35,071 nt of DNA from Lysobacterales bacterium (GTDB lineage Bacteria > Pseudomonadota > Gammaproteobacteria > Xanthomonadales > Marinicellaceae): positions 1-35,071 of the forward strand of contig JALSLV010000107.1 of the NCBI GenBank assembly GCA_026988115.1. Direction: 5' to 3'. Below, in pieces: positions 1-28,620 of the stretch (positions within the stretch are counted from its first letter, which is position 1; every line of letters starts with the position of its first letter). A model generated the notes under the pieces. That model had not been told where the DNA came from. It did not search any database and saw only the letters and a program-made list of their open reading frames with translations. The position numbers and the translations under genes are program-made.

Positions 1-2
1 TT

Positions 3-65
3 AGTGATAATGGCTTGCCATTGTTCTTTGCTGCGTCTGATCATTTGGTTATTCCTGATTTATAA
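3..65 (+). CDS. possible 3' end of a gene cut by the window edge
   Basis: An open frame enters from the left edge and stops at TAA (63-65), giving about 20 residues ending LVIPDL. Its composition looks protein-like and less AT-rich than the DNA to its right. The piece is too short to assign to a family. It could equally be a chance open frame. Confidence 0.3.
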   Translation, partial: SDNGLPLFFAASDHLVIPDL

Positions 66-121
66 ATGCAGAAGTATGAACCAGATTGAGATTTAATTAT
101 AGGGGGTGGTTTGGTTGACGC

Positions 122-223
122 TTACGAATAAAATGTTAAAACAAGGATAAATACAAGTATACTCCATATTATACCTAAAAATTTTAAAAACTGACCAAGT
201 TTATTACCGTTACTGTTTTTCAT
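122..223 (-). CDS. 33-aa single-span membrane ORF downstream of the STAND gene
   Basis: A short frame starts at ATG (221-223) and ends at TAA. A purine-rich GAGAG stretch lies about 9 nt before the start and could serve as ribosome binding site. The product has a polar, Lys/Asn-rich start of about 12 residues. A continuous hydrophobic segment follows (about residues 16-31, FLGIIWSILVFILVLTF), then a Tyr-Ser end. This predicts one transmembrane helix with the charged end in the cytoplasm. It lies 115 bp after the stop of the large STAND-like gene on the same strand, so the two could share a transcript. I recognise no family. Small hydrophobic peptides near defence genes can be toxins or effectors, but nothing here shows that. 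It may also be a chance ORF in AT-rich DNA. Confidence 0.45.
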   Translation of the reverse strand: MKNSNGNKLGQFLKFLGIIWSILVFILVLTFYS

Positions 224-338
224 TGCTATCTCTCAACTATTAGTGATACTTCAATAGTGAAAGTTAGTTAGGTATTCTCTCAGTTTACTAACCATTAAAT
301 TTGACTTATTCTTATTAATTAACAATTAGGACACTTTT

Positions 339-3300
339 TCATAAGAAATAATCTTCAGGTTTCTCTTGACCAAATAATTTTTTTTCTCTTTGTGTAGTTA
401 GTTTTTTAATTCTATTCTTATAGGCATCTAGTAAATTTGGCCAATATTCACTCATAAATTTTGTTTGAGGTATAAATTTTATTTTCCAAACCTCAAAACG
501 TGCATCAACAACTTTTAAGAATAAAACAGAGAATTTCCAAAACTCTGCTTTGGTTTGAGCTCTATCCATTTTCTTATACCAATGTTCAGCCCACTGATTA
601 CGTTCATAAGCAAAAATTGCAGCTTTTGTTGCATTGCCAATTAATCCTTTGGCATTATTGAATTTAGTTATAATTTTTGTAGAAAGAGATGAATCAACTC
701 CAAGACCGCATACAGTTATAGCTCTTGCAATATTTATAGGTTTATTAGAACAAATGAGCTTATTAACAAAGCCCTCTATAAGTTTATTTTTTTCATGAAT
801 ATTGGCTGTTAATATCTCAATAAATAATTCTTGGTCATTTGTAATTAAAGATAAGTAATTCATTCTAAATTTATTTAATTTATCATTATCATTGCTGTTC
901 CATATTGACCATGAGCTTTGAGGTATTTTTGCAATGCCAAAAATTTGGGTAATAGTAGAACTTCCTAATGCAAGATGTTTAAAGAGTCGGACAGATTGAT
1001 TAATTTCTTTTTTTGATAAACATTCAGCAATACAAAATCCAATATTTCTAATATGGTGTAAATGATTTGGTTCTTTATTTAGAATTGAATTGACCCAACT
1101 TCTAACTAAATCAGGTGCATTGTCAATACAAATATTAATTGTCTTTCTATCTAAACTATCTAATACTAAATATGATTCATTATTTGATAACCCCTCTAAG
1201 TAGTTGTTAAATTTATTCCAACTAAAATTTATTTTATCTTGATTTTCTTTTTGACCTAGCATTTCAAGTGATGTCTTACTATCTAAAGCCTTACCAACCT
1301 CTAGTAACGGAGGTCTATTTTGAGACATATCGTTGTCGATTTCATTTAACTGATATAGCTTATTATTTGAAATCAACTTATTAATAGTATTACCTATTAG
1401 ACTTGCTAATCTCACCGTTTGATTCTTTGTTAACCTTGATGCTATAAACCCCATACCGTTAAGAGGCAATCTTTTGAAAATTTTATTAACTGAAATATAA
1501 CCGTATTTCTCGGCTAATATAAGAATTCTTGAACCAAAATATATTTCTCTACTATCATTTCTTGGGTCTAACCTATTTGCATTCCAGTTATTTTCCACAA
1601 CAACTTTTATAATATTTTTAAACATTAAAGGGTATTTACTTGCTAGATTCATCACTTCTCTAGTGATTGATTTATTTTTGTGATAAATTAGTTTCTCAAT
1701 AATTAATTTGGTCTTTTCAGTAATTTCAGTATTGGAATATCGAGCAAACATCAGTAAGGTAATGATTTTATTTTCAATTTGAACATTTACAACATTTTGA
1801 AATGATCTTTCTAATATATTTTTATTGGCAACTTTATAAAGATTAAACTGACTCAGTAATGGTCCACCACTGCCTTGAGTGTCTAAAGAAATTAAGAATT
1901 CAAGTTGTTTTGTGCCATTCAAATTTGGAAGTATTAATTTTATAAGATACTGTAAACTAGCTTGTTCCTCATTTGTATTTTCATCTTGTAGATTTAATTC
2001 TTTAGAAAGCATTTGTGCTTTCTCTATTAGTTTTTTGTTCAAATCATCAAGGATTAATGAATTACATTGCTGAAGATGATGACATAAGCTATATAAATTT
2101 CTGCCCTGTAAATTTAGTAAGTTTTTAAAAATCACTCGATATTTTTTTATTGCTAGTTTAGGTTTAAATCTAGCCATTGCAGCATTTACATCTCTAAAAT
2201 ATCGATCTTCGCTTGAGATATTGAATGACTGGAATAGTGTTTTATTAAGTAAGTTATTATATTTCTCAATTGTTGGTTTCAAATTATTAGGTTGTATTGA
2301 GTTTGGTTCACAAGGATCGCTATCACAATACTTTTCTTTTAAACTAAATCCTTTAAAATCTTTCCTATCTTTAGTTAATTCTTTAGTAATTTTATGAGCA
2401 TATAATGAATCTTTCTCAGTAGCCAACGCCCATAAAATAGAAGCTAGCGCCCATTTCCCCGAGCTTGATGTAGATGTTTCATTAAGAAATGAAGTTACAT
2501 CTAAAAACTTTGACCTTGTTTCTTTCCAATCACAGTTATTGAATTGAATCAAATGTTTAAATTCATCATCTATTGAAAACATGATAGGATTAATAGATTG
2601 ACCAAACTTCCATGCCACAAGGTATTCAACATGTGCTGTTAACGGCATTCCTGACAATAACTGAAATGAATTTCTTACTAACTTAGTTGTATCTAATTTG
2701 TCATTTTGCTGCATGAATTTATTTTTAAAGTTTGACTCAAATTCTGACATTGAGTTGATTTTATTTTCAAGTTTCTGCTTTTCAGTTTCCCTTATTTTTC
2801 CAATATCTTTTTTACTTTTATTCTGGCTCATAGTCCTAGCCATTCGCATACTTGGTTTTAATGAATAATAACTCAACCAGTTATTTATCTCTTTCTTCAT
2901 TATTTTCCAACAACTATTATCTTTTCTAACATCACATAAGGCTGAAACTAGTAAATTGCTATTTCGATAATATAAATCTGAAATAGAAATTTTAAAAAGC
3001 ACATCCATTAATAATTTGGTTCTATTTCTTGTTATAGAAACAAAAACTTCATACATGTTTTCTTTTAGGTTTTGAATCTTTAATAAAAACTCATGAATTA
3101 ATTCGATTGTAATTGCATTAGGAGTATTATCATCAATACTTGATATTTCTATTGCTGCTATTACGACATCAGCTGCAATGTCTAAAGAAGAAATCGGTTC
3201 AATAATCGCTGTTAAAGAATTAGATATATCAAGATTGTTCCGAATTGATTCTTTCATGTTTGAAATTATCAACAGAGCTAATGCCAATATTAATCCATCG

Positions 3301-5012
3301 TCTTTTAACCTATAGCGAGTTATATCATCTGGTAAAAACTCTATATACCTTCCTTCTAAAATATTAGTTAAACTTTTAGTCAAAGGGTTGTCATCTTTTG
3401 ACAAAGTATTAAAACTTAAATCTGCTTTGTCATTTGTCTTTTTGCGATTGATAATACCTTTTGCAACTTCTGATAAGTGAAATTTTAATTCATCTGCCGT
3501 ATTAATTTGAGAATGTCTTATTAGATGTGCTAATAAATGCTCAAATAATAAACGAGATGGACTCATGTCATTAAGACTTTGGATTTTTTGGTTGGAAAAC
3601 AAATCAAGTGCTATAGCTAACAGTCGCGGGTTTCTTAAGGCATTGATTACCTTTTGATTTAGTTTATCAATCTTGATATGTTTAGTTTCAAGAATTTCTT
3701 CTAATTCAGGTATTGTCCACTCTGGGACAATGATTTCACTTTTTTTTAATTTTCGATTTTTTGGTAAAATATTAGTTTCAAAAAATTCTTTTCGGCAAGA
3801 TATTGCTAAAATTCCATTAATTTTAGATAAAAATCTATTGATAACTTCAATCCAAATTACCCATTGATGATTTGGGTATTCATTTAATCCGTCAATATAT
3901 ACTATTATATTTGGCACTGTATTATTAGAATTATCCAATTTATTTTTGTTCTTCCAATTATTTAAAACGTTATCCCATCTTTTTTCTTTGAATTCTGAAT
4001 CCTCATCCATGGTTTGTTTAATCAATTGTCGAACAATCAATTTTTTTACATTTTTGCTGTTATTAAAATCTGAAAAATTATTTGCTGAAAACATCAATAG
4101 CAGAGTGCTTTCGCTATTAAATTTAATCCAGCTATTAACAAATAACCATGATTTACCAGAGCCTTCATTTCCTAATATTGTAATGATGTCATTAACAATT
4201 TCCTTTTTATCATCATCTATCTTTTCAGCTAATGGTTTAGTTAAGTCATTACAAATACTAAATCCTTTTATCAGTGAATCCATAAGGGTTAAACGCATTA
4301 AATTATTGGATTGTTTAACAGCAAGGTTTTGTCCGAACTCCAATCTTGATTCAGACTCATTTGATACAACAGAATTTAACCATTCTTTATTCTTGTCATA
4401 AGCTAAAGGCAAGCCAAGAGTTGGTTCATTTAATAAGCTTAGAATTTTTTCTTTTTCTGAAAGATACTGTTTGTCACTTTCTATCTTTTGTAATGCAGTC
4501 TCGACTTTTTTAAAGTCGATACTCTCATCCTGTGTATTTGATTTAAAAAAATTTAAAACCACTGTTCTTGACATAGCACATAAAGTAGCTAATGGAGGTG
4601 TATTCGTGCTTGATGGCCAATCAAGAATTAAATGATGAATTGAGTTTTTATCACAAACGTTTCTTACTGATTTTTCAAGTTGTTCTTTAATCTCAGTTGT
4701 TGCACACAACATCCATAAATTTGGTGGTATTCCAGATTCAACTATATCAAAAACTTTGTTTTTAATATCATTAGGACGAATTCTGCCAGTATAAAGCTTG
4801 CCTTCAAATGTAAGGTGAATACTATTATCATAAGAAGCACCATCAATTCCATGTTGTGAACCAGAGCCGGCTAATCTAAATATCTTTCCAGTTAAATCAT
4901 TTAAACATTTTGCTAATAATCCTTCAAAACCATTGCTTCCAGTCGGTTTTAAAGAAGTGATAGCGTTTTTTAGAATTTTTAAATAGTCATTTTGAGATAG
5001 CTTTACACTCAT
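339..5012 (-). CDS. Avs-like STAND NTPase with N-terminal PD-(D/E)xK-type nuclease domain
   Basis: This 1557-aa protein has the plan of an antiviral STAND (Avs) sensor. Residues 1-150 carry nuclease-like motifs: E30, then QHGIDG with D57, then E70-G-K72, matching the acidic and ExK positions of Mrr/Cap4-type PD-(D/E)xK enzymes. A P-loop GNEGSGKS is at 281-288. Walker B IIVYIDGLNE is at 369-378, with the D-G-x-N-E form common in STAND/NACHT ATPases, and CRKEFF is at 406-411. LRNPRLLAIALDLF near 459-472 resembles the following NACHT helical region. About 1,000 residues of mostly helical sequence follow, where Avs proteins sense phage proteins. In that family, ligand binding drives oligomerisation and activates the N-terminal nuclease. 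The start has a nearby AGAGAT stretch, with TTGCTC/TCATAT-like promoter boxes further upstream. Codon use is much more AT-rich than in the core genes, suggesting transfer. Domain calls come from motifs; the Avs subtype is unresolved. Confidence 0.72.
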   Translation of the reverse strand: MSVKLSQNDYLKILKNAITSLKPTGSNGFEGLLAKCLNDLTGKIFRLAGSGSQHGIDGASYDNSIHLTFEGKLYTGRIRPNDIKNKVFDIVESGIPPNLWMLCATTEIKEQLEKSVRNVCDKNSIHHLILDWPSSTNTPPLATLCAMSRTVVLNFFKSNTQDESIDFKKVETALQKIESDKQYLSEKEKILSLLNEPTLGLPLAYDKNKEWLNSVVSNESESRLEFGQNLAVKQSNNLMRLTLMDSLIKGFSICNDLTKPLAEKIDDDKKEIVNDIITILGNEGSGKSWLFVNSWIKFNSESTLLLMFSANNFSDFNNSKNVKKLIVRQLIKQTMDEDSEFKEKRWDNVLNNWKNKNKLDNSNNTVPNIIVYIDGLNEYPNHQWVIWIEVINRFLSKINGILAISCRKEFFETNILPKNRKLKKSEIIVPEWTIPELEEILETKHIKIDKLNQKVINALRNPRLLAIALDLFSNQKIQSLNDMSPSRLLFEHLLAHLIRHSQINTADELKFHLSEVAKGIINRKKTNDKADLSFNTLSKDDNPLTKSLTNILEGRYIEFLPDDITRYRLKDDGLILALALLIISNMKESIRNNLDISNSLTAIIEPISSLDIAADVVIAAIEISSIDDNTPNAITIELIHEFLLKIQNLKENMYEVFVSITRNRTKLLMDVLFKISISDLYYRNSNLLVSALCDVRKDNSCWKIMKKEINNWLSYYSLKPSMRMARTMSQNKSKKDIGKIRETEKQKLENKINSMSEFESNFKNKFMQQNDKLDTTKLVRNSFQLLSGMPLTAHVEYLVAWKFGQSINPIMFSIDDEFKHLIQFNNCDWKETRSKFLDVTSFLNETSTSSSGKWALASILWALATEKDSLYAHKITKELTKDRKDFKGFSLKEKYCDSDPCEPNSIQPNNLKPTIEKYNNLLNKTLFQSFNISSEDRYFRDVNAAMARFKPKLAIKKYRVIFKNLLNLQGRNLYSLCHHLQQCNSLILDDLNKKLIEKAQMLSKELNLQDENTNEEQASLQYLIKLILPNLNGTKQLEFLISLDTQGSGGPLLSQFNLYKVANKNILERSFQNVVNVQIENKIITLLMFARYSNTEITEKTKLIIEKLIYHKNKSITREVMNLASKYPLMFKNIIKVVVENNWNANRLDPRNDSREIYFGSRILILAEKYGYISVNKIFKRLPLNGMGFIASRLTKNQTVRLASLIGNTINKLISNNKLYQLNEIDNDMSQNRPPLLEVGKALDSKTSLEMLGQKENQDKINFSWNKFNNYLEGLSNNESYLVLDSLDRKTINICIDNAPDLVRSWVNSILNKEPNHLHHIRNIGFCIAECLSKKEINQSVRLFKHLALGSSTITQIFGIAKIPQSSWSIWNSNDNDKLNKFRMNYLSLITNDQELFIEILTANIHEKNKLIEGFVNKLICSNKPINIARAITVCGLGVDSSLSTKIITKFNNAKGLIGNATKAAIFAYERNQWAEHWYKKMDRAQTKAEFWKFSVLFLKVVDARFEVWKIKFIPQTKFMSEYWPNLLDAYKNRIKKLTTQREKKLFGQEKPEDYFL

Positions 5013-5298
5013 ATTTTTATCTCTATATGATATGAATTTATTTGTTGAGCAATTAGAAAATTCAGAATAGTATTTTTATCTAAACTTCTAGTGAGGTAGC
5101 TTTTAAGAACAACTTTTTGAAATAATGGCATTTTAGCGAGTTTTGAGTTTGATGTTTAGCTTATCATTGTTGTGATGAATTTAAAATAGTTTCTTGAGTT
5201 TGTTTGTTCAGTAGGTTTAGTCATTTATTTGTCTCAGTCTTTTTGAATGTAAATTTGACTATAGTATTAGAAATAAATGTTTATAAAATTTTATAAGG
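5013..5298. other. gene-free AT-rich leader of the STAND gene, with a perfect palindrome
   Basis: I see no coding frame here. It probably holds the promoter of the minus-strand STAND gene: TTGCTC (complement of 5047-5052) and a TCATAT-like box (complement of 5025-5030) are spaced 16 bp apart, which is only a weak match. At 5281-5296 lies the perfect 16-bp palindrome TTATAAAATTTTATAA, right at the change from AT-rich DNA to the hairpin repeat next to ssrA. Confidence 0.4.
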
Positions 5299-5426
5299 CG
5301 GCGGGATTATAAAATCACATCCTTGTGATTTTACCCTTCGGGCTGCCTGCGGCATTCAAAAGTGCTATCCCTGCACTTTTAGTCGAACGTCACTTCGTGA
5401 AGTTCTCATCCGCCATCTCCACCAAT
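5299..5426 (-). repeat. hairpin-rich repeat ending in an inverted copy of the ssrA 3' end
   Basis: The segment has short inverted ends (GGCGGGAT at 5299-5307; ATCCGCC inside the right end). It contains two perfect 8-bp hairpins: arms 5311-5318/5325-5332 and 5358-5365/5373-5380. On the minus strand their loops read AAGGAT and AGGGATA. A small 4-bp hairpin is at 5390-5400. The last 17 bases (5410-5426) are a perfect inverted copy of the ssrA 3' end (5459-5475). With one gap and two substitutions the match reaches into the T-arm (from 5402). It may be a mobile or attachment-site-derived repeat, or a structured RNA on the ssrA strand. Confidence 0.6.
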
Positions 5427-5456
5427 AAAAAAGGCCGTTCATATGAACGGCCTTCT
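5425..5456 (-). terminator. rho-independent terminator of ssrA
   Basis: The 24-bp palindrome AAGGCCGTTC-ATAT-GAACGGCCTT (5431-5454) is followed on the minus strand by a run of T. It lies 6 bp after the CCA end of ssrA and has the form expected of an intrinsic terminator. Confidence 0.85.
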
Positions 5457-5460
5457 GTAT

Positions 5461-5810
5461 TGGTGGAGATGGCGGGATTCGAACCCGCGTCCGCCAGCCC
5501 TCTATTTGAGGATCTACATGCTTAGCTTTGTCATTTAATCTCGCGCTACTGGCTCCGACAATCAGGATCCAGTTTTGCCAGTTTAGATAAGTTTAACTTC
5601 AAATCGTCCAAACACCGACCGAAGCGATCTTACTAAGTGACCCTTATCCTAATACCGTAAGCTGAGTTAGGTAAGGGCTAGCTTAAGCAGCTAGAGCGTA
5701 GTTATCGTCGTTTGCAACTATAACATTTGAAACATTTTTAACGAGGATAGTTTCTTCCTCGGCATGCACCTACAAACTTCGCGACCCACGTCGAAACCAA
5801 TGACATCCCC
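5461..5810 (-). ncRNA. ssrA: transfer-messenger RNA (tmRNA)
   Basis: tmRNA rescues stalled ribosomes with SmpB and tags the unfinished protein for proteolysis. The 5' end (from 5810) reads GGGGATGTCATTGGTTTCGA. The 3' end closes the tRNA-like domain with a T-arm containing GGTTCGAAT and an encoded CCA (5461-5463). The 5' and 3' ends pair as the acceptor stem, so this is the one-piece form of about 350 nt. The tag frame (5715 down to 5683) has resume codon GCA and reads ANDDNYALAA then TAA. With the Ala carried by tmRNA this gives AANDDNYALAA, differing from the E. coli tag only by Asp for Glu. A strong terminator follows directly. The gene marks the border of the AT-rich left region, and ssrA is a well-known integration site, but no integrase is visible here. 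Confidence 0.96.
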
Positions 5811-25263: not shown

Positions 25264-25882
25264 TATTTGGCTGGTCATTGGCTTTATAGGTCAAGCCCTT
25301 TTTACCGGGCGATTTATCGTGCAATGGCTGGCATCTGAAAAACAGAGAAAAAGCGTCATTCCACGTGCTTTTTGGTATTTTTCAATCGCAGGCAGTTTAA
25401 CTTTATTGTCTTATGCTTTGTACCGACGCGACCCTATTTTTGTTATGGGGCAAACATTCGGCGTGGTGATTTATTTGCGTAACTTGTATTTTATTAACCC
25501 CAAAATAGTCAAACCTTTAATCACGGGCATTGTTATTTTCTTTACCACTTTGATTTCTTATTTGTTTTCCATTGGTTTTGTAACTCCCGAACACATCAAA
25601 GAACTTCGCAGCAACAATACTGCCACGGACACCTTTTGGCAAATCATTGGCTTTATCGGACAAATCATGTTTTCCATGCGTTTTATCCTGCAATGGATGG
25701 AATCTGAAAAGCAAAAAAAATCGGTCATGCCCGTATCTTTTTGGTATTTTTCCATGTTTGGTAGTTTAATTTTATTGTCCTACGCCATCTACCAAAAAGA
25801 CCCTGTTTTTATCTTAGGTCAAAGTTTCGGTATGATAGTTTATCTAAGAAATTTGTATTTTATTTTTAAGGACAGAAAATAA
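25253..25882 (+). CDS. membrane protein with two LAB_N domains
   Basis: The 209-aa product contains two copies of the LAB_N domain (named for the N-terminus of some lipid-A-disaccharide synthases). The repeat FIGQALFTGRFIVQWLASEK near residue 12 recurs as FIGQIMFSMRFILQWMESEK near 135. SVIPRAFWYFSIAGSLTLLSYALY likewise recurs as SVMPVSFWYFSMFGSLILLSYAIY. Each copy has about three helices, with a further helix between copies. I chose ATG at 25253, within the end of the glycosyltransferase, over 25217, because the LAB_N copy begins right after it. In such clusters LAB_N proteins accompany a GT2 and a PMT transferase. A carrier-lipid transport or binding role is plausible but unproven. Confidence 0.85.
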   Translation: MSNSIWLVIGFIGQALFTGRFIVQWLASEKQRKSVIPRAFWYFSIAGSLTLLSYALYRRDPIFVMGQTFGVVIYLRNLYFINPKIVKPLITGIVIFFTTLISYLFSIGFVTPEHIKELRSNNTATDTFWQIIGFIGQIMFSMRFILQWMESEKQKKSVMPVSFWYFSMFGSLILLSYAIYQKDPVFILGQSFGMIVYLRNLYFIFKDRK

Positions 25883-25971
25883 TGATAGAGCAGACCAAGG
25901 CAGAGGTGCAGCGAAAACCTTTAATACTTCAGGGCATCTGTTATACTTATTTTTTAACGACTAAAATCTAA
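25882..25971 (+). CDS. 29-aa ORF, possible gene remnant at an insertion junction
   Basis: ATG at 25882 overlaps the TAA of the LAB_N gene (TAATG), an arrangement typical of coupled genes. The frame encodes 29 residues starting MIEQTKAEVQR and ends just before rhuM. I see no known domain. It may be the surviving start of an original third gene cut by arrival of rhuM, or a chance frame. Confidence 0.3.
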   Translation: MIEQTKAEVQRKPLILQGICYTYFLTTKI

Positions 25972-25978
25972 ATGACCA

Positions 25979-26965
25979 ATGGATAATTCAAAACTAGACA
26001 AAGGGGAGATTCTTATTTATCAGTCTTCGCAAGGAGATATTAAACTTGATGTTTCTATTCAAGATGAAACCGTTTGGTTGACACAAAAGCAAATGGCTCA
26101 ATTATTTGGCAAAGCCAAATCAACTATTAATGAACATATAAAGAATATTTTTAAAGAAGGCGAACTCCAAGAAAACTTAGTCTTACAGAAATTCGGAAAT
26201 TCCGAATTTCAGCACAAAGTACCGAATTACTACAATCTTGACGTAATCATTTCAGTTGGCTACCGTGTCAAATCCAAACAAGGCACTCAGTTTAGGATTT
26301 GGGCAACGCAAAGGTTAAAAGAACATATAATCAAAGGATTTACTCTAAATGATGATAGGTTTAAATCTGGTCAATCCATGAATTTCTTTGATGAATTACA
26401 AGATAGAATCCGAGAAATTCGCTTATCTGAGAAGTTCTTTTATCAAAAAATTAAAGACATTTACACCACCAGCATTGATTATGATCCTCAAAATCCCAAA
26501 ACTATTGAATTTTTTAAGATTGTACAAAATAAATTGCTGTGGGCTATTAGCCAACAAACGGCTGCCGAATTGGTTTATCGCCGAGTTGATGCATCTTTAC
26601 CCTTGTTAGGCATGTTATCAAGTGATAAAAAATCTATTAAAAAAGTCGATGTCAGTATTGCAAAAAATTACCTTAATGAAGATGAGATGAAATTGCTCGG
26701 TTTGTTGGTTGAACAATATCTGGCTTTTGCCGAAACCATGGCACAACAACACACACCGATGTACATGAAGGATTGGATAGAACGACTGGATGTTATTTTA
26801 AAACTCAATGGCAGGGAATTATTAACCCATGCGGGGAAAATCAGCCAGCAAATGGCATTGGATAAATCTTCAATAGAATACAAAAAATATATAGGAATTA
26901 AAAAAAACAAACAAATTGAGCAAAGCCTAAAAGAAATAGAAGCAGACATTGGGAAATTAAAATGA
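25979..26965 (+). CDS. rhuM: RhuM family protein
   Basis: The 328-aa protein matches the RhuM family, first named from Salmonella pathogenicity island 3 and common in mobile and defence islands; its biochemical role is not established. Family features are an N-terminal region GEILIYQSSQGDIKLDVSIQ, then a likely winged-helix DNA-binding part (VWLTQKQMAQLFGKAKSTINEHI). NYYNLDVIISVGYRVKS and GTQFRIWATQRLKEHIIKGF follow; these shared segments also occur in related Fic-associated and phage regulators. The second half, with EQYLAFAETMAQQHTPMYM and DVILKLNGRELLTHAGKIS, is the family's C-terminal region. It looks complete. No Shine-Dalgarno is visible before the ATG. Its TGA overlaps the ATG of the next transferase. 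It interrupts an otherwise functional glycosylation cluster, which suggests insertion. Confidence 0.88.
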   Translation: MDNSKLDKGEILIYQSSQGDIKLDVSIQDETVWLTQKQMAQLFGKAKSTINEHIKNIFKEGELQENLVLQKFGNSEFQHKVPNYYNLDVIISVGYRVKSKQGTQFRIWATQRLKEHIIKGFTLNDDRFKSGQSMNFFDELQDRIREIRLSEKFFYQKIKDIYTTSIDYDPQNPKTIEFFKIVQNKLLWAISQQTAAELVYRRVDASLPLLGMLSSDKKSIKKVDVSIAKNYLNEDEMKLLGLLVEQYLAFAETMAQQHTPMYMKDWIERLDVILKLNGRELLTHAGKISQQMALDKSSIEYKKYIGIKKNKQIEQSLKEIEADIGKLK

Positions 26966-28620
26966 GTTCTGTTGATATTAAAAAATACACCTTTTGGCTT
27001 TTCGCCATCACCGCCATTGTTATCCTAGCGGGAATCGGCTTACGCGATCCTTGGCCACCTGATGAACCGCGGTTTGCTTTGATGGCGAAGGAAATGTGGG
27101 AGACGGGGAATTGGTTTTTTCCGCACCGAGGTGGTGAGATTTACCCGGATAAACCGCCGATGGTGATGTGGATGATTTTGTTGTTTTATGGCTTGTTGGG
27201 TAATTTAAAAATTGCCTTCTTGTTGCCTTCGGCCATCTTATCCATGCTAACTATGTGGATGACTGTCGATATTGCCAAGCGATTATACAACCCTAAAATT
27301 GGATTGTATGCAGGATTTTTATTAGCCATTACTTTGCACTTTATTTTGCAAGCCAAAAGTGGACAATTGGATGCTCCGGTGGCTTTTTGGGTGATGCTTG
27401 GGTCTTATGGGCTGTTGCGGCATTTGATACTTGGTCCTGCTTGGCGTTGGTATTGTCTGGCCTTTTTTGCTATGGGCATGGGAATTATTACTAAAGGTGT
27501 GGGGTTTTTGCCTGTGCTGATGTTATTTGGCTTAATCATTGTTTCGCCGAGTTGGGCTGATAAAAACAATAAGCAATTACTCAAGTGGTTTGCAGGACTA
27601 TTCTTTTTACTTTTTGCTGTATCACTGTGGTTAATTCCGATGTTGATTCAAGTAGACAACAATCCAACACCTGATGTTTTGGCTTATCGTGATAATATTT
27701 TACTGAAACAGACAGTTAACCGATATGCCAAGTCTTGGGCGCATCTGCAACCTTTTTATTATTATGTACTTGAGGTAATTCCGTTGTTTTGGTTGCCTTT
27801 GAGTTTGTTTATTCCTTGGTTGATTAAGCCGATAAAACAGGCTTTTAAAGATAAAGACAGACGCATTATTTACCCTTTAACAATGGTGGTCTTTGTGGTT
27901 TTCTTTTTTAGTTTATCTAAAGGCAAGCGTGCTGAATACATGTTACCAATCCTGCCGATGTTTGTATTAATCATTGCACCCTTTTTTGAACAGTTAATAG
28001 CGAATAAAACTATACAGCGAATATCGGTTACATTAGTATTTATATTATCTTTTATGCTTTGTTTAATTGGCTTTTCTGGGGTATTTGGCGTTGAAAAGGT
28101 GACACATTTAACCGCTAAATATCTTGTTAATCCTTGGTATTGGCTGGCATCACTTGGCTTGTTTGGTTTAATTGTTAGTATTGTTTTTAGAAAAAATGCC
28201 TTAAAAATATACACCATTTTTATGCTAGGTATGTGGCTTAGTTATAGTTTATGGGCAATGCCATTGGTTGATAAAGCCATGAGCACTCAGCCGATGATGG
28301 CAGCGATTGCCAAAGTTCTACCACAAGATGCGGAACTTGGTTTGGTTGGTATGCGCGAAAAATTGCTATTGCATACGCATTGGAAAACCACACATTTTGG
28401 TCATCATCTCCCCAAAAAAGAACAACAACAGGCTGCTGTTAATTGGATTCATGAAAAACAAAAGCGTTATTTATTAGTGAATAAAGATTTTGTAAATGCG
28501 TGTTTTAAACCTCAAAACCGCTTAGATTACGATTCATTTCACAAGACTAAATGGCTGCTTTTTTCCAATACTAAGTGCAAGCCCGACAATAAAAAACACA
28601 GTGTTTATTCTAGCCATTGA
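26962..28620 (+). CDS. PMT/ArnT-like membrane glycosyltransferase
   Basis: This 552-aa enzyme has an N-terminal helix, a periplasmic loop with the catalytic acidic motif DPWPPDEPRFALMAKEM (D34-E35), and the YPDKPPMVMW segment typical of GT83/PMT-family proteins such as ArnT. About 11 further hydrophobic helices run to residue 440. A soluble C-terminal part of about 100 residues follows (MREKLLLHTHWKTTHFGHH). Such enzymes take a sugar from an undecaprenyl-phosphate carrier and attach it to lipid A, a glycan or a protein on the outer side of the inner membrane. With the GT2 and LAB_N genes it forms a carrier-lipid glycosylation pathway. It starts at the ATGA overlap with rhuM. The acceptor cannot be named; ArnT itself is longer-motif specific, so I give no symbol. 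Confidence 0.9.
   Translation: MSSVDIKKYTFWLFAITAIVILAGIGLRDPWPPDEPRFALMAKEMWETGNWFFPHRGGEIYPDKPPMVMWMILLFYGLLGNLKIAFLLPSAILSMLTMWMTVDIAKRLYNPKIGLYAGFLLAITLHFILQAKSGQLDAPVAFWVMLGSYGLLRHLILGPAWRWYCLAFFAMGMGIITKGVGFLPVLMLFGLIIVSPSWADKNNKQLLKWFAGLFFLLFAVSLWLIPMLIQVDNNPTPDVLAYRDNILLKQTVNRYAKSWAHLQPFYYYVLEVIPLFWLPLSLFIPWLIKPIKQAFKDKDRRIIYPLTMVVFVVFFFSLSKGKRAEYMLPILPMFVLIIAPFFEQLIANKTIQRISVTLVFILSFMLCLIGFSGVFGVEKVTHLTAKYLVNPWYWLASLGLFGLIVSIVFRKNALKIYTIFMLGMWLSYSLWAMPLVDKAMSTQPMMAAIAKVLPQDAELGLVGMREKLLLHTHWKTTHFGHHLPKKEQQQAAVNWIHEKQKRYLLVNKDFVNACFKPQNRLDYDSFHKTKWLLFSNTKCKPDNKKHSVYSSH

Follow-up and report, generated by a model that had tools for sequence, protein, structure and literature searches.

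At one end of the window, by which we mean the whole 35,071-nucleotide stretch analysed and the entire contig C107 of a 121-contig, 3.5-Mb genome, lies a large gene (339–5012, minus strand) that is real, intact and probably acquired, and that belongs to an Avs-like family missed by the models we searched. Its product joins a predicted nuclease, a STAND NTPase and a helical solenoid in one chain, and we consider it likely that the protein is a single-gene Avs-like (prokaryotic NLR) anti-phage receptor.

Gene and domain architecture

The open reading frame starts with an ATG at 5012, encodes 1557 amino acids and ends with a stop codon at 339–341; just 338 bp separate it from the contig end, and sequence farther out lies beyond view. 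A sequence-only reading of this DNA had proposed such a protein at this position, with AT-rich coding. The frame is indeed present, on the minus strand, which that reading had left unstated, and the GC content over positions 1–4500 (28.3–28.5%) is below that of the rest of the window (33.1–44.1% in 1500-bp steps from 6001 to 34500).

The N-terminal portion of the protein, about residues 1–160 (4533–5012, minus strand), is a PD-(D/E)xK-type nuclease domain by the order of elements in its structure model, its invariant motifs and its alignment to the N-terminus of Avs2. It is followed by a STAND/NACHT NTPase domain at about residues 241–480 (3573–4292, minus strand), assigned from NACHT matches in relatives, an Avs2 profile and the fold. 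The motifs named in the sequence-only reading all lie at the residues it gave: E30 (codon 4923–4925), D57 (codon 4842–4844) and E70-x-K72 (4797–4805) in the nuclease, Walker A GNEGSGKS at residues 281–288 (4149–4172) and Walker B IIVYIDGLNE at residues 369–378 (3879–3908), all on the minus strand. In an alignment of 28 sequences, whose members other than the window protein are 17–32% identical to it, these motifs proved invariant at the nuclease columns F29, E30, Q53, D57, E70, K72 and Y74, the Walker A columns G281, E283, G284, G286 and K287 and the Walker B columns D374, G375 and N377, as did the pair P462-R463 (28/28 in each case). Such invariance indicates that the nuclease and Walker motifs are under selection and did not arise by chance. 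The alignment was made without a relative with a broken frame (L031), one with a split frame (L037) and one from the same contig as another member (P0003, with L036); P0007 in it begins one codon ahead of its start codon and P0005 may overrun at the C-terminus, with the invariant columns lying inside both. By mean pairwise identity per column the nuclease was the most conserved region (0.39), followed by the STAND domain with the helical region after it (0.32–0.34), the C-terminal cap (0.33), the solenoid (0.275) and the linker (0.23, the lowest).

A Pfam scan of the protein gave zero models above cut-off, with NACHT at E 0.063 (13.5 bits, below the 26.7 cut-off), and no nuclease family model in Pfam, PADLOC or NCBIfam scored for it. 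NACHT was matched by 6 of 9 family members at E<=1, the best at 1.8e-6. Taken with the invariant Walker motifs, the fold and the Avs2 STAND profile described below, these matches place the centre of the protein in the STAND/NACHT superfamily, and the N-terminus is a predicted PD-(D/E)xK nuclease by its invariant motif, the element order of its model and the alignment to the Avs2 nuclease region.

AlphaFold2 models, built with 21 sequences, covered residues 1–740 (mean pLDDT 80.8) and 560–1557 (mean pLDDT 86.1). The first shows the element order of a PD-(D/E)xK core (H7-19, H29-41, E45-47, E67-74, H80-92, E99-104, H110-122, E126-130) and then a P-loop NTPase, so both the nuclease-like N-terminus and the STAND/NACHT centre expected from the sequence-only reading appear in it. 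Residues 52–61, the loop that carries D57, have a pLDDT below 50, and the nuclease fold is thus a modelled assignment resting on motifs and topology. The second model is nearly all helical. After the NTPase comes a mostly helical region at about residues 481–640 (3093–3572, minus strand; approximate boundaries from model secondary structure), followed by a helical solenoid, the proposed sensor, at about residues 641–1400 (813–3092, minus strand) and by a conserved C-terminal cap at about residues 1401–1557 (342–812, minus strand), in which W1478, D1503 and R1505 are invariant; in the model the solenoid extends over roughly 900 residues. The sensor assignment is suggested by the model, by Foldseek matches to HEAT-type solenoids and by conservation, which is lower there than in the nuclease, the STAND domain and the cap. 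Weak matches to arginine-dihydrolase-like proteins at about residues 1470–1550 (NCBIfam E 2.5e-4, PDB 0.17) were considered and rejected, as the score of 20.4 bits falls far short of the 450-bit cut-off and the model shows mainly helices in this stretch.

Relationship to Avs and other STAND proteins

Restriction-endonuclease-fold nucleases, NACHT-type STAND NTPases and HEAT repeats have long been reported as components of conflict systems in prokaryotes (PMC7159879). When the model of residues 1–740 was compared with the PDB using Foldseek, the top two matches were Avs4 bound to a phage portal (PDB 8dgf; E 4.1e-8 and 7.7e-8), with alignments covering 728 and 697 columns and chains of 1534 and 1541 residues, compared with 1557 here. 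Avs4 itself is described as having an N-terminal nuclease (PMC12931631). Next in order were NLRC4 and then many AAA+ ATPases, 147 matches reaching E<=0.001, and general AAA+ ATPases such as NSF and ORC also matched at E <1e-4. The TM-score to Avs4 was 0.34 by query and 0.19 by target, values low enough that the kinship should be read as one of parts and their order and not of one rigid shape. In the C-terminal half, HEAT-type solenoids (karyopherins, CAND1, SF3B1) were matched with TM-scores of about 0.2, and Avs4 and the other Avs folds were absent from the best 50 of 908 matches (E<=10).

In a single-target search, the family was compared with a profile of three Avs2-type proteins that come from two genomes; one of the three passes the 1000-bit cut-off of the NCBIfam Avs2 model, and the others score 536–540 bits. 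The two profiles aligned co-linearly from the nuclease through the STAND domain (query columns 17–451; 417 columns, Prob 93.0, E 3.5e-7), with both Walker motifs and the FE...GxD...(E/Q)xK layout of the nuclease shared. The STAND part alone aligned over 187 columns (Prob 95.9, E 6.4e-9) and the nuclease part alone reached E 0.022 with Prob 2.2; a reversed-sequence control gave E 0.54. Avs2 differs in its sensor, for which the search found no match in residues 641–1557 (best E 0.48). A PDB profile search with alignment A1 gave weak matches only (best E 0.022).

Defence-gene models did not recognize the window protein: PADLOC returned 0 families at E<=1, and NCBIfam returned no Avs model up to E 10 and no meaningful model of any kind. 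The NCBIfam Avs2, Avs4 and Avs5 models had no match in the genome either, with few candidates scored per genome. Both libraries presumably include Avs1 and Avs3 models as well. Judged by the PADLOC and NCBIfam models, then, the whole protein would fall outside Avs1–5. Among nine family members, PADLOC matched six families, each in one member, the best being Aga_REase-TIR-PNTD1-PNTD2 (E 6.3e-4) and one being Avs2 (E 0.029). A search of mainly the open literature found no description of the nuclease-STAND-solenoid family, although one may exist elsewhere.

Other characterized systems resemble the protein in plan. According to one report, bNACHT25 and bNACHT32 (clade 6) have PD-(D/E)XK DNase effectors joined to NACHT domains and act by DNA degradation, a likeness we draw by description; they differ in having an NCH1 C-terminus in place of the giant solenoid seen here, and bNACHT25 also in its sensing, its activation running through the host chaperone DnaJ (PMC12169576). 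Avs5 is described as sharing the tripartite effector-STAND-repeat plan but carrying a Sir2 effector and not a nuclease (PMC12931631), and, as noted, its model had no match here.

To summarize, the Avs-like plan proposed in the sequence-only reading is borne out by the fold, with Avs4 at ranks 1 and 2, and by the 417-column Avs2 match, and its remark that the C-terminal half lacks a known Avs signature agrees with each of the searches above. Its kinship with Avs lies in the effector-NTPase half; the protein looks like an Avs and probably works like one.

Distribution, acquisition and genomic setting

Single-sequence scans of the sets genome_contigs and viral_contigs yielded no relatives, and with alignment A2 as the query 21 loci were found in genome_contigs and one in viral_contigs. 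Of the 21 loci that have a long open frame, 19 gave a single tblastn piece reaching residue 1551 or beyond. By tblastn, 14 plasmid records matched, five with a coverage of 80% or more of the length, and 50,697 phage records gave no match. Record titles and taxonomy lines place hosts in the Alpha-, Beta- and Gammaproteobacteria, the Desulfobacteraceae, a Bacteroidales MAG and the Nitrospirota (Candidatus Manganitrophus). Full-length relatives have hosts in four phyla by record title, the Bacteroidales case being one 5.5-kb MAG contig that is possibly mis-binned. Within the class, 4 of 274 genomes matched at E<=0.001, the source genome included, and one of the others did so over just 83 residues. 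The family was absent from all 10 other genomes of the genus and all 22 other genomes of the family that were searched. A FastTree phylogeny of 28 sequences gave the window protein a long branch and grouped it, at a local support of 0.999, with three Sphingomonadales relatives. These data show that the nuclease-STAND-solenoid family is mobile and patchy. For the window gene, which the sequence-only reading had suspected to be acquired, the absence from those 32 genomes, the AT-rich coding and the Sphingomonadales grouping all speak for that suspicion, and horizontal acquisition would be the simplest reading of the patchy presence and the tree.

The gene lies on the 3' side of ssrA (tmRNA; 5461–5810, minus strand) and is read in the same direction. 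We examined the ssrA region of ten relatives and found an integrase on the 3' side of ssrA in four of them: a tyrosine integrase with an arm-binding domain at most 0.2 kb away in L094, L097 and L098, and a tyrosine integrase about 0.6 kb away in L089. The four were chosen by eye and confirmed with Pfam, the ORFs of the other six relatives being unscanned; the contigs of two (L092, L093) stop less than 0.4 kb from ssrA, and in the congener G279 (L090) about 0.8 kb lies between ssrA and the start of the next ORF with 80 or more amino acids, which resembles a thioredoxin reductase. These integrases mark ssrA as an integration site used in the host's family, and it is a candidate for that role here. 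In the source genome, the 23-mer at the 3' end of ssrA has a single copy, with up to 3 mismatches allowed and no duplicate, and of nine integrase matches none lies on the contig of the STAND gene. The border position that had been taken as a sign of acquisition is real; as far as the contig reaches, neither an integrase nor a second end of ssrA turned up there. A 66-bp near-perfect palindrome (5410–5475) consists of the ssrA terminator and the 3' end of ssrA copied in inverted orientation. A similar inverted match occurs in the congener L089 as well (3188–3251). Elsewhere in the window, an ORF at 25979–26965 (plus strand), which we take to resemble RhuM-type proteins, lies in an AT-richer stretch (33.9% GC over 25501–27000).

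Between ssrA and the STAND gene we found the remains of another gene. A 40-codon leader ORF (5009–5131, minus strand) ends in a TGA that overlaps the STAND start codon (ATGA), and it is headed by a 104-bp remnant (5092–5195, minus strand) of a type IIG-like restriction-methyltransferase gene, of which just the leader and about 13 codons are recognizable in the window. The remnant is 79% identical (E 4.9e-18) to G000:C76:10422–10525, a region holding the start of a 100-amino-acid fragment that represents a second broken copy of the gene (G000:C76:10162–10525), and its positions 5092–5168 match the start region of a long ORF in G279 (L125; 79 columns, 76%, E 9e-9). Over its first 49 residues the C76 fragment shares 78% identity with that long ORF, which is a long open copy of the gene (L125:1492–3150) and carries an IELKS stretch near its N-terminus and a DPACGSGAFL motif, marks that we take to be those of a type IIG restriction-methyltransferase. 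The STAND gene seems to have co-opted the expression start of the restriction gene and may be expressed from the leader remnant. Promoter-like sites in the leader region were no more frequent than expected by chance (3 found, 2.1 expected).

We also assessed the neighbourhoods of the relatives, using ORFs defined by a longest-ORF rule and not by a gene finder. No recurrent partner gene emerged among 187 neighbour ORFs, the largest cross-locus cluster comprising three ORFs from two loci, which fits a gene that works alone. Some relatives lie beside defence genes: one (L009) adjoins a XamI restriction-modification pair, together with a helicase/SAVED pair that BLAST relates to Hachiman genes found at another locus, one (L011) has HamA beside it, and one (L012) RloB and an AAA ATPase. 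In a strict test, we took the nearest ORF of 200–1500 amino acids at 18 of 22 loci, excluding a near-duplicate of L017 (L020), a second instance of the L009 element (L031), a locus with no such ORF (L023) and one with a broken frame (L037). At 4 of 18 loci this ORF had a near-full-length PADLOC match, namely to a CBASS phospholipase effector, a type III methyltransferase, Mokosh MkoA or SoFic, compared with 0 of 18 control genes. Counting any PADLOC match at E<=1e-5, the numbers were 4 of 18 and 3 of 18, the control matches being a helicase, whose E values go as low as 1e-19, and two of lesser strength. In a wider scan at E<=1e-10, the PADLOC families numbered 87 among 133 neighbour ORFs (of 136, three over 1500 amino acids being dropped) and 36 among 133 control ORFs (of 137, four dropped); these are counts of families and not of genes, and single proteins such as MTase, MkoA and JetB yield many. 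The controls were arbitrary stretches, mostly the start of contig 1, from genomes of the same class whose hosts were unmatched to those of the neighbours, and two control genomes (three stretches) hold a family member elsewhere. The defence neighbourhood of family members is therefore suggestive: the sequence-only reading had looked to defence islands for homologs, and the near-full-length matches give this modest support, tempered by the weaker matches among the controls. Separately, at one locus (L022:1–3603) a second large STAND-type protein lies directly upstream of the family member (nSTAND3 E 7.6e-6, its 26.1 bits lying just under the cut-off of 27.2; no PADLOC match at E<=1e-5).

Proposed function and its alternatives

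As described in one study, the nucleases of Avs1–4 cut phage and host genomes on recognizing terminase, portal or the phage protein Ksap1 (PMC12931631). By analogy, the window protein would idle in an inactive, nucleotide-bound state until the solenoid and the C-terminal cap engage a phage cue, most probably one of the conserved phage proteins; the STAND domain would then oligomerize with ATP and bring the nuclease domains together, and the paired nucleases would cut phage and host DNA, so that the infected cell dies and the infection is aborted. The sensor showed no relation to that of Avs2 and was not placed with those of other Avs proteins, and the trigger may well therefore be another phage protein, or a known one recognized by another of its faces. 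A further step, to which we give somewhat less than even weight, is that the family constitutes a separate, hitherto unnamed Avs type, spread horizontally across several bacterial phyla, whose HEAT-like solenoid and cap recognize a phage component not sensed by Avs1–5.

The same nuclease-STAND output could instead serve a guard-type receptor, whose solenoid monitors a host process disturbed by infection, much as bNACHT25 does via DnaJ. This is unlikely in our estimation: bNACHT25 and bNACHT32 do share the nuclease-NACHT plan, and a spread over several phyla would be in keeping with a trigger that is independent of any single phage group, but their described NCH1 domains are unlike the giant solenoid (PMC12169576), and a host-specific guard would be expected to travel poorly between phyla. 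Less probable still is a role mainly against plasmids or rival mobile elements, or in type IV-like restriction of modified DNA, to which the 14 plasmid records, the absence from phage records and a weak Mrr_cat match in one of nine members (E 0.18) might point; the long solenoid and the STAND core speak rather for a switch triggered by a protein, as do the Avs4 and NLRC4 fold matches. STAND proteins are also described as including bacterial transcription regulators such as MalT (PMC10427625), and the N-terminal nuclease-like fold might then have another role, but we hold such a non-defence regulator to be very improbable given the full nuclease signature in 28 of 28 sequences, the patchy horizontal spread and the defence genes among some neighbours.

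For the anti-phage receptor that we favour, the class of mechanism is an ordinary one for Avs/NLR proteins, and it is the sensor and its trigger that are of interest. For bacterial NLR-like nucleases few triggers from phages have been identified, and a separate, widely spread nuclease-STAND family with a large sensor of its own offers a direct route to a possibly new one. That the family was missed by the defence-gene models searched suggests, moreover, that this class is larger than catalogues relying on such models indicate.
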